A stretch of 57,208 nt of DNA. Source: an uncultured Bacteroidales bacterium. Lineage in GTDB: Bacteria > Bacteroidota > Bacteroidia > Bacteroidales > UBA932. Location: contig CASFSL010000010.1 of NCBI GenBank assembly GCA_949297365.1, positions 1-57,208 on the forward strand. Direction: 5' to 3'. The notes under the pieces are model-generated. The model searched no databases and was not told the origin of the DNA. It saw only the letters and a list, made by a program, of their open reading frames with translations. Of this stretch, positions 55,473 to 57,126 are shown piece after piece (within the stretch, counting starts at the first letter, position 1; each line of letters begins with the position of its first letter). A program made the translations under genes and the position numbers.

Positions 55473-56522
55473 ATGAAAAAAGTTGTTTTGACATTGGCTG
55501 CGCTGTCTGCGCTGGCGGTGACGGCTGTGGCTCAGGATGTGGATGATTTCGATCTGTTCAAGGCTGCACGTGAACGCGAGATGTCCGATTATCAGTCCAG
55601 ACGGGCCGAGGAATACGCTCATTTCAAAGCTGCGTATTATGGGGCCTTCGAACAGTTCTTGAAACTGTATCAGCAGTATCTTGAAGATGATGAGGCTGTG
55701 ATAGACCTGATGTCCTCCGATGACGGCATCAAGGTGGAGCCGGCAATGCTGGCCGTGCAGCCGAAGGCAGTGACTACTGCGGCCGACCAGAAGCAGATAC
55801 TGGCAGAGAGTATGAAGAATATCCGGCATCTCAGGCCGGAGGACCTGATACCGGTGCTGTCAGACAAGCAGGACACTGTGGAGCGGATGCAGGAGGCCGC
55901 CGAGACTCTGGAGGAGATAGTCAAGGATATGGCGACCGTGGCTGTAGAGGAGAATGATGAGCCGGTGAATGTTACGACTAAGGTCGTGCTGGAGCCGTAT
56001 GACCCTGAGTATTTCTCCAATTTGCCTTCGCTGGAGGAACTCTCCGGCAACGATGCTTCCGGCTCCTCTGAAGCCGGGACTCCCGTCGGGACATCTTCTG
56101 CGACTGCCTCCGAAAGTTCAGCCGGACTGAGTTCCTCTGTTCCCAGTGGAAAGCCTACGGAGTATGTGCGCATATCTTCTCCTTTCGGCACCCGTGTTCA
56201 TCCCATTACCCGTAAGAAGCATACCCACAAGGGTATAGACCTGGCCGCACCGAAGATGACTCCGATATACGCCACGGCTGACGGAGAGGTGACTTTCTCC
56301 GGACGCAACGGCGGCTACGGCAACTTCGTCAAGATCAATCACCGCAATGGCTACAAGACCGCTTATGCCCACATGCACAAGATAGCGGTCAAGAAAGGTG
56401 CGGATGTCCACAAGGGCGACCTTATCGGCTACGTCGGGACCACCGGCTCCAGCACCGGCAACCACCTCCATTACGAGGTCTACTATCAGGACAAGTTGGT
56501 AGATCCCGCTACGACACTATAG
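55473..56522 (+). CDS. Secreted M23-family metallopeptidase
   Basis: The 349-residue protein has a signal peptide (cleavage near VAQDV, residue 20), an N-terminal coiled-coil-like stretch (about residues 25-140), a Ser/Gly-rich linker (195-230), and a C-terminal LytM/M23 domain (about 235-345). The zinc site is formed by HKGIDLAAPK and the HLHYEVY segment, with GYKTAYAHMHK between. M23 enzymes cut peptidoglycan cross-bridges; coiled-coil members of the EnvC type instead activate amidases, but here both zinc histidines are intact, so catalysis is possible. The gene ends 114 bases before a sigma-54-like promoter. Confidence 0.9.
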   Translation: MKKVVLTLAALSALAVTAVAQDVDDFDLFKAAREREMSDYQSRRAEEYAHFKAAYYGAFEQFLKLYQQYLEDDEAVIDLMSSDDGIKVEPAMLAVQPKAVTTAADQKQILAESMKNIRHLRPEDLIPVLSDKQDTVERMQEAAETLEEIVKDMATVAVEENDEPVNVTTKVVLEPYDPEYFSNLPSLEELSGNDASGSSEAGTPVGTSSATASESSAGLSSSVPSGKPTEYVRISSPFGTRVHPITRKKHTHKGIDLAAPKMTPIYATADGEVTFSGRNGGYGNFVKINHRNGYKTAYAHMHKIAVKKGADVHKGDLIGYVGTTGSSTGNHLHYEVYYQDKLVDPATTL

Positions 56523-56635
56523 CCGGTCCGCTATCGCGTTGTGGTTGCCTGCTGTCTCGCCGGGCCCTGCCCGCTATCCATTGTAACCTGATTGTCACTA
56601 AGATAAAACCGTTCCGTAACTTCATCCCGGATTTG

Positions 56636-56652
56636 TGGCACGCAGTTTGCAA
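56636..56652 (+). promoter_or_regulatory. Sigma-54 (-24/-12) promoter
   Basis: TGGCACG (56636-56642), CAGT, then TTGC (56647-56650) followed by AA matches the sigma-54 consensus TGGCACG-N4-TTGCW at every defined position, with the GG and GC 12 bases apart. I found no second match in the window. TCCGTAA (56613-56619) and TTACGGA (56660-56666) form an inverted repeat around it. The start of transcription would be near 56662. Confidence 0.7.
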
Positions 56653-56682
56653 GTTCTCATTACGGATAGTTTTTTCATAGGT

Positions 56683-56703
56683 TAAGTATTAGGTTAAGTA
56701 ATA
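56683..56703. repeat. Direct repeat GGTTAAGTA with a 3-base spacer
   Basis: GGTTAAGTA occurs twice, separated by TTA, within the predicted small RNA. It may be part of its target or structure. Confidence 0.6.
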
Positions 56704-56738
56704 AAGGCTGACGGGTTCTCCGCCGGCCTTTATTATTT
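56700..56738 (+). terminator. Terminator-like hairpin of the predicted small RNA
   Basis: AATAAAGGCTG (56700-56710) pairs with CGGCCTTTATT (56724-56734) with one G-T pair. Only a short T-rich tail follows. Confidence 0.65.
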
Positions 56739-56827
56739 CCATTCTCTCTATTTCCACGTTTGACTTTTGTGTCCTAGGCACCCGTCTCTCCAGCGTGTCC
56801 TTCCCCTATGGGGCAGCATCGGATCCC

Positions 56828-56871
56828 CGGGAAAGTGAACCAGTCTGCCTCGTTTTCGGTACACTTTCCCC
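56828..56871. repeat. 44-base palindromic repeat, copy D
   Basis: CGGGAAAGTG (56828-56837) and CACTTTCCCC (56862-56871) have the same 10-24-10 geometry as the other three copies. The centre resembles theirs in reverse orientation. Confidence 0.8.
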
Positions 56872-56943: not shown

Positions 56944-57126
56944 TGTCACTATACATTTTCGTTATATTGCATTTTGCTGATTGTCAAGATGTTCTGCTCT
57001 TGCAAGAATGTTAGATGCTCCGATTTTCCTCAAAATACGGCATTTTGGGATGCTCCTTACATTTTGTGATTTTGCCAACATCGGGATTTACAGGTATTTC
57101 TGACCTAACGAAAATGTATAGTGGCA
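56944..57126. repeat. 183-base element with near-perfect terminal inverted repeats
   Basis: CACTATACATTTTCGTTA (56947-56964) and TAACGAAAATGTATAGTG (57106-57123) are perfect 18-base inverted repeats; three flanking bases extend them with one mismatch. The interior of about 140 bases has no gene motif. It is MITE-like, or a pair of inverted sites. Confidence 0.6.

Follow-up and report, generated by a model that had tools for sequence, protein, structure and literature searches.

A stand-alone small-RNA gene with a sigma-54 promoter, FopS-like and repressing a SusC transporter, probably occupies positions 56636-56740 of the window (the whole stretch of 57,208 nucleotides analysed, corresponding to contig 10 in a draft genome of 2.28 Mb), to judge from sequence and comparison. 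The interpretation of a sigma-54-driven sRNA, put forward in a preliminary description of this DNA, is supported by what follows, with a qualification as to its novelty. That description spoke of a new regulatory RNA, if real; an sRNA candidate it is, but one that looks related to the known FopS sRNAs, being one of four FopS-like paralogues in its genome and a member of a family found across the Bacteroidales. Coordinates of the features are collected in Table 1.

Table 1. Features of the candidate sRNA gene, its upstream neighbour and two further promoter-like loci (positions are those of the window unless another locus is named).
Feature	Position	Strand	Remarks
M23 peptidase gene, upstream neighbour	55473..56522	+	PF01551, 1.7e-35
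Putative sigma-54 promoter TGGCACGCAGTTTGC	56636..56650	+	-24 TGGCAC 56636-56641; -12 TTGC 56647-56650
Predicted sRNA, ~75-80 nt	56662..56740	+	begins 12 nt past the -12 C; no variation from 56663
Seed GATAGTTTTTTCATAGGTTAAGTATTAGGTTAAGT	56665..56699	+	identical in 15/15 close copies; complements a start-codon region (..TTAACCTATGAAAAAAC..)
Direct repeat TAGGTTAAGTAT / TAGGTTAAGTAA	56678..56701	+	12 nt each, 56678-56689 / 56690-56701; seen in 15/15 close copies
Hairpin resembling a Rho-independent terminator	56696..56738	+	arms 56696-56714 / 56720-56738; covariation in relatives
Intergenic TGGCAC-N5-TTGC, ABC permease	L011 301-1692 (G000:C38)		
Intergenic TGGCAC-N5-TTGC, RND adaptor	L183 1501-2676 (G000:C4)		

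The full -24/-12 match claimed in the preliminary description is borne out, as TGGCACG-N4-TTGC has a single exact occurrence in the window, TGGCACGCAGTTTGC on the plus strand, with the GG and GC at fixed spacing inside TGGCAC-N5-TTGC. Matches with up to two mismatches number 14 in the window, against 15.0 expected, which is chance level. Conservation was assessed in 15 close copies from the genus, the best similarity matches (L013-L027) of a DNA search, own genome included, anchored by an expression for seed plus repeat (56665-56699) that was present in all 15 loci tried; the neighbouring genes were inspected in two of these loci. In the -24 element T-G-G-C-A is common to 15/15 and its C to 14, while in the -12 region T-T-T-G is common to 15/15 and its C to 13. 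At the spacer positions 10, 12, 12, 14 and 15 of the 15 copies agree. The invariance of the promoter bases while most of the spacer varies counts against a chance motif, and the sigma-54 promoter is, on this pattern, under selection in the close genus copies. Among the 12 positions between the -12 element and 56663, eight are shared by 7-9 copies and four by 13-14, with 9, 7 and 8 copies agreeing at 56660-56662; from 56663 through 56699 all 15 are identical, and the invariant block thus opens one base past the start predicted from the distance to the -12 C. The -24/-12 bases, the direct repeat and the hairpin are kept together in relatives.

Attention had also been drawn to an inverted pair flanking the promoter, TCCGTAA (56613) and TTACGGA (56660). 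The pair is present, but not conserved: both arms occur in 2/15 close copies, the window's own and that of one 99% identical relative, and the pair, rejected as a functional element, is probably due to chance. Repeated sequence of other kinds lies toward the end of the window, where a MITE-like element of 183 bp with 21-nt inverted ends (95% complementary) occupies 56944-57126. The closest relative (L014, 93.7%) likewise has it beside the sRNA, and a 73-nt, 91.8% match to it is found elsewhere in the genome (L356). Between the sRNA and this element an inverted repeat, GGGAAAGTGAACC / GGTACACTTTCCC, spans 56829-56870.

No open reading frame of at least 80 aa is found between the M23 gene and the window end. 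Both the direct repeat that the preliminary description placed in the transcript and the hairpin that it placed downstream of the promoter are real, and a covariance-model match for the RNA extends over 56664-56739. Folding of 56600-56745 gives z = -3.2, with none of 200 shuffles as stable, and in the window fold, in which DNA upstream of the start is included, the seed is unpaired except for its first bases. A strict terminator scan flagged the minus strand and gave no plus-strand flag at the hairpin, the latter because the T-run after the hairpin is short. Across the family a hairpin with at least five T at its end is seen in 131 of 158 copies, compared with 205 of 2,000 random 72-mers. Compensatory change was followed in two subsets chosen for homogeneity: in one (14 copies) 92.9% of cells are paired and 11 of 13 pairs have changed on both sides, and in the other (18 copies) the values are 95.6% and 8 of 14. 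The respective covariation scores, 0.877 and 0.580, were attained in 0/500 shuffles, as were the cell counts, and slid controls gave at most 0.205; the plain count of pairs with both sides altered was equalled by 27/500 and 28/500 shuffles. A consensus fold of the mixed 32-sequence alignment returned no pairs, the hairpins being spread by MAFFT.

Covariance models R1 and R2, built from relatives' copies, locate four sRNA paralogues in the genome, on contigs C10 (the window), C39, C40 and C16, and a -24/-12 site is present at 4/4, that on C16 reading TGGCACGGGAATTGT. Neighbours of the paralogues include an acyltransferase gene and a nitroreductase gene, and one paralogue lies between genes for a UvrD helicase and a UDP-sugar dehydrogenase. 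This recurrence bears directly on another reading, in which the hairpin merely terminates the M23 peptidase gene, with the -24/-12 match being either chance or an unrelated DNA motif. Lying on the same strand as the M23 gene and beginning 174 nt past its stop codon, the hairpin could serve as its terminator; nevertheless, the unit of promoter, seed and hairpin adjoins other genes elsewhere in the genome, the RNA is present in 56/59 genomes of the window's taxonomic family, and the contrast between invariant promoter bases and a mostly variable spacer would be unaccounted for. The terminator reading, already largely refuted, is exceedingly improbable. A DNA search of the 59 genomes, own included, matched 33, with many matches spanning promoter plus seed.

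The sRNA gene having been taken as such, the distribution of its promoter types is pertinent. Within the window's family 136 places were found, seven of which were left out (G255:C4, G024:C16, G024:C6, G031:C31:235151, G267:C17, G273:C17 and G006:C44), and the 130 rows counted include one additional, partial match (L284:57-108). The sigma-54 type accounts for 92/130 classified copies, in 14/18 genera and in 49/56 genomes with copies; 37 genomes have this type exclusively and 7/56 have copies none of which is of it. The sole sigma-54 call in one genus (g167, L285) also passes the test for the alternative TAnnTTTG box and may be false. In other Bacteroidales families the sigma-54 type is found in 0/33 copies (27 genomes), these being the copies inside best-match loci of an order-wide scan, with nine having a full TAnnTTTG box, eight a relaxed one and 16 neither. 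A scan blind to the promoter, in which a species-genome collection was searched by pattern for the RNA core, has among the 123 matches listed 58 with the sigma-54 type, the site being at the proper distance, 41 with full and 11 with relaxed TAnnTTTG, two doubtful for sigma-54, five with neither and six not classifiable. As 52 of 20,000 random 60-mers pass the sigma-54 test (82 of 20,000 for TAnnTTTG), the 58 among those listed are beyond chance. When non-identical copies from all sources are taken together (158), 95 have the sigma-54 type only, 41 full TAnnTTTG only, two both and 20 neither; the TAnnTTTG distance range allowed is wider in the count by taxon than in this one, and the 82 of 20,000 pertains to the narrower range. 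An A at -24, beyond the GG and G required for assignment to the sigma-54 class, is present in 97/97 copies of that class.

Some copies have individual features. Five loci (L041, L065, L089, L152 and L167) have a conserved leader, GTGCGAAAGCAC, between an upstream box resembling TACCTTTG/TACATTTG and the seed; the leader is possibly a small hairpin, and RNAs of this subgroup may have a longer 5′ end. Pairs of copies 0.1-1.8 kb apart, in L229 (1501, 1694), L036 (416, 1535), L126 (4318, 4466) and L329 (356, 2098), suggest local duplication of the sRNA gene. A FopS-like core is also found on five IMG/VR viral contigs (L399, L400, L401, L402 and L403), upstream of which no sigma-54 site was seen by eye; searches of phage and plasmid records gave no match.

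The preliminary description proposed looking for rpoN and an enhancer-binding protein, and counted absence of rpoN as refuting; both are encoded in the genome. The rpoN gene (G000:C15) is full, with PF04552 at 2.4e-54 and TIGR02395 at 430 bits. Four strong AAA+ enhancer-binding proteins (E below 1e-65) comprise, by Pfam, two with receiver-AAA-HTH layout, one AAA-HTH and one receiver-AAA with no recognised HTH. The last of these layouts is seen at L392 3758-4915 (G000:C44), a receiver-AAA+ sigma-54 activator lacking a recognised DNA-binding domain, which may work from solution. There is one RRM protein, which passes the NF058537 'RNA-binding regulator' model (103.9 versus 100 bits). Elsewhere, TGGCAY-N5-TTGC occurs 13 times in the genome, against five for the reversed control, and 11 occurrences are outside the sRNA genes, seven of them within open reading frames and four not. 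Two of these four are intergenic TGGCAC-N5-TTGC sites, one ~50 nt 5′ of an ABC permease gene (MacB/FtsX domains) and one at a like distance from the gene of an RND efflux adaptor, possible further members of a sigma-54 regulon. This permease presumably belongs to the ABC antimicrobial-peptide permeases. Such permeases are among the groups reported as enriched for sigma-54 in Bacteroidia, according to the accessible part of PMC12316311. The other two of the four are identical TGGCATAAGAGTTGC sites, ~11 kb apart and outside long open reading frames (L184 and L185, G000:C9), and possibly sit in a repeat.

Whether the -24/-12-like bases are instead read by another regulator, or by sigma-ABfr, has to be weighed against this background. 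The TAnnTTTG box of other members of the RNA family is in keeping with such a reading, as is the finding that no dominant motif, of the sort expected for an activator binding site, is shared by 106 dereplicated upstream regions. It is nonetheless very unlikely, given the fit of both bases and spacing to the sigma-54 consensus, the presence of rpoN, the division of the 158 copies between the two promoter types, with both in two and neither in 20, and the recurrence of the same intergenic motif ahead of the permease and efflux adaptor genes.

The kind of RNA is a known one. In B. thetaiotaomicron, the accessible sections of PMC11697453 describe 14 copies of FopS, with sigma-ABfr promoters and induction by bile salts, the RNAs being bound by RbpB, binding at translation starts and repressing SusC translation. 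The window RNA resembles FopS (RF04319) in being one of several copies of an RNA of ~65-80 nt with a 5′ seed containing UUUUUCAU..AGGUUAA followed by a terminator hairpin, in matching the model over its full length, in the class of target, SusC start codons (here predicted), and in the presence of an RRM protein in the genome. It is unlike FopS in having four copies and sigma-54 sites rather than the 14 copies and sigma-ABfr promoters of that account (PMC11697453, in part), in falling far under the Rfam cut-off, and in a seed with two GGTTAAGT repeats. GibS of B. thetaiotaomicron has an R1 seed in common with FopS and, as far as the accessible text of PMC7366714 goes, no sigma-ABfr promoter; it differs in its length of ~145 nt, its second seed, R2, and a promoter of the type named motif 2, with elements at -10 and -30 in place of -24/-12 (same source). 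The Rfam FopS model aligns with the window RNA over positions 1-71 of 71 at 20.3 bits (E 0.43; gathering cut-off 56), which, with unrelated families scoring 16-17 bits, alone proves nothing. Relatives within the family score 31-33 bits in 3/17 loci, and RNAs of other Bacteroidales families, located with the covariance model, 54.9 bits (E 2.7e-5; the highest among the relatives scanned) and 43 bits (E 0.005), so intermediates toward FopS exist. The window RNA looks like a relative of FopS, and is termed FopS-like and not filed as FopS itself. Two more distant parallels can be named. The Qrr sRNAs of Vibrio are several paralogues under sigma-54 and an NtrC-type activator; the likeness is on paper only, with phylum, RNA-binding partner and targets all different, and no homology is claimed. 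In Escherichia coli the sigma-E sRNAs MicA and RybB act at translation starts to reduce the making of outer-membrane proteins; here the logic is similar, while sigma class, RNA family and chaperone differ.

From the perspective of a target, TTAACCTATGAAAAA was searched for in the genome with up to two mismatches and found at six places, namely the four sRNA genes and two more. The pattern reversed, as a control, has three, and with the number of non-sRNA matches at chance level only location supports a target. One of the two is at the exact start codon of a SusC gene, in a locus with the order sugar permease, SusC, SusD, SusE and two alpha-amylases; of four full-length SusC genes in the genome, one bears the match. 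The predicted duplex has 13 bp, one mismatch and 10 bp (23 bp in all) at -22.7 kcal/mol, a strength reached by 2/500 letter-shuffled seeds and by 9/349 other start regions. Among the three SusC starts checked the second, at -19.6, is matched by 26/349 control starts and 4/500 shuffles, and the third, at -9.7, by 329/349 control starts. Other signal-peptide genes pair equally well, so energy alone cannot single out SusC. TTAACnT immediately 5′ of the ATG occurs at 0/349 control starts.

With one mismatch allowed, 14/19 genomes of the genus (12 exact) have the site in its SusC form, each time at a gene that is SusC-like and shares the N-terminus; a further two matches lie elsewhere, and the reversed control gave four in total. 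Search matches are lacking at SusC in 5/19 genus genomes, one of them 99% complete. Conservation of the 15-mer searched for follows from how the matches were chosen, and more relevant is that bases +9 to +14, beyond it, agree in 14/14, in comparison with an average of 9.5/14 over positions -40 to -9. Part of this conservation may reflect the protein, the target being coding sequence from +1 to +14. The predicted 23-bp pairing with one SusC translation start is kept in most genomes of the genus examined. The adjacent M23 gene was also tried as a target and rejected: its start pairs at -16.9 with the window seed and at best, with one of the four seeds, at -23.9, and the leader lacks conservation in those relatives for which a start could be located.

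A different type of reading grants the sRNA and its sigma-54 promoter, and has as main targets other exported-protein mRNAs starting ATGAAAAA, or a titrated protein (e.g. the RRM protein), the SusC match being a side effect. Most of the nine control starts that pair at SusC strength look, by their N-termini, like those of exported proteins or lipoproteins, and the seed core is retained in other Bacteroidales families, both of which accord with it. One of the nine is, however, the M23 start with its unconserved leader, the SusC site is by contrast retained in most of the genus, and six of the nine tested FopS targets given in the accessible sections of PMC11697453 are SusC homologues. Such a reading is on balance rather unlikely, and SusC is retained below as the candidate target.

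As features of the sequence, the promoter, the seed, the covarying hairpin, the paralogues, the susC site, rpoN, the activators and the RRM gene are all present, and a scheme drawing on them can be put forward conditionally. Transcription of the sRNA by sigma-54 RNA polymerase would take place only while an enhancer-binding protein is active, with that activator opening the sRNA promoter. The seed would then pair with the translation start of the mRNA for at least one SusC-type outer-membrane transporter and block initiation, and the RRM protein would probably modulate the pairing of sRNA and susC as RbpB does in Bacteroides. What the activator might respond to is more speculative; envelope stress is suggested because two intergenic sites of sigma-54 type precede export genes and because FopS in Bacteroides answers bile salts. 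Taken to its full extent, with a multicopy sRNA of FopS type having moved in one family of uncultured Bacteroidales from a housekeeping to a sigma-54 promoter, such that one or more enhancer-binding proteins turn on export genes (the ABC permease and the RND adaptor) and, by way of the sRNAs, turn off SusC import pores at the start codon, the scheme would be an envelope-protecting circuit, a tentative possibility that we regard as less than even. If true, it would parallel in Bacteroidota the logic of sigma-E with MicA and RybB, but employ sigma-54 as its sigma factor and an RRM protein in place of Hfq.

As far as the literature searched goes (under Bacteroides, Bacteroidetes, Bacteroidota and Cryptobacteroides), no report of a sigma-54-driven sRNA in Bacteroidota was found, and the accessible part of PMC12316311, which deals with sigma-54 in Bacteroidia, has no mention of 'sRNA' or 'small RNA'. 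Within that scope, what is new is a FopS-like sRNA under sigma-54 in one family together with a conserved site at the SusC of a starch locus, the RNA kind itself being known. With sigma-54 at most copies in one family and at none of the 33 elsewhere, the promoter switch can be placed and tested. A direct candidate target, the starch-locus SusC, is named together with a testable site. Sigma-54 would gain a post-transcriptional arm in Bacteroidota, and, with the RNA family present under strict filters in 70/198 sampled Bacteroidales genomes, the question touches a large share of gut communities.
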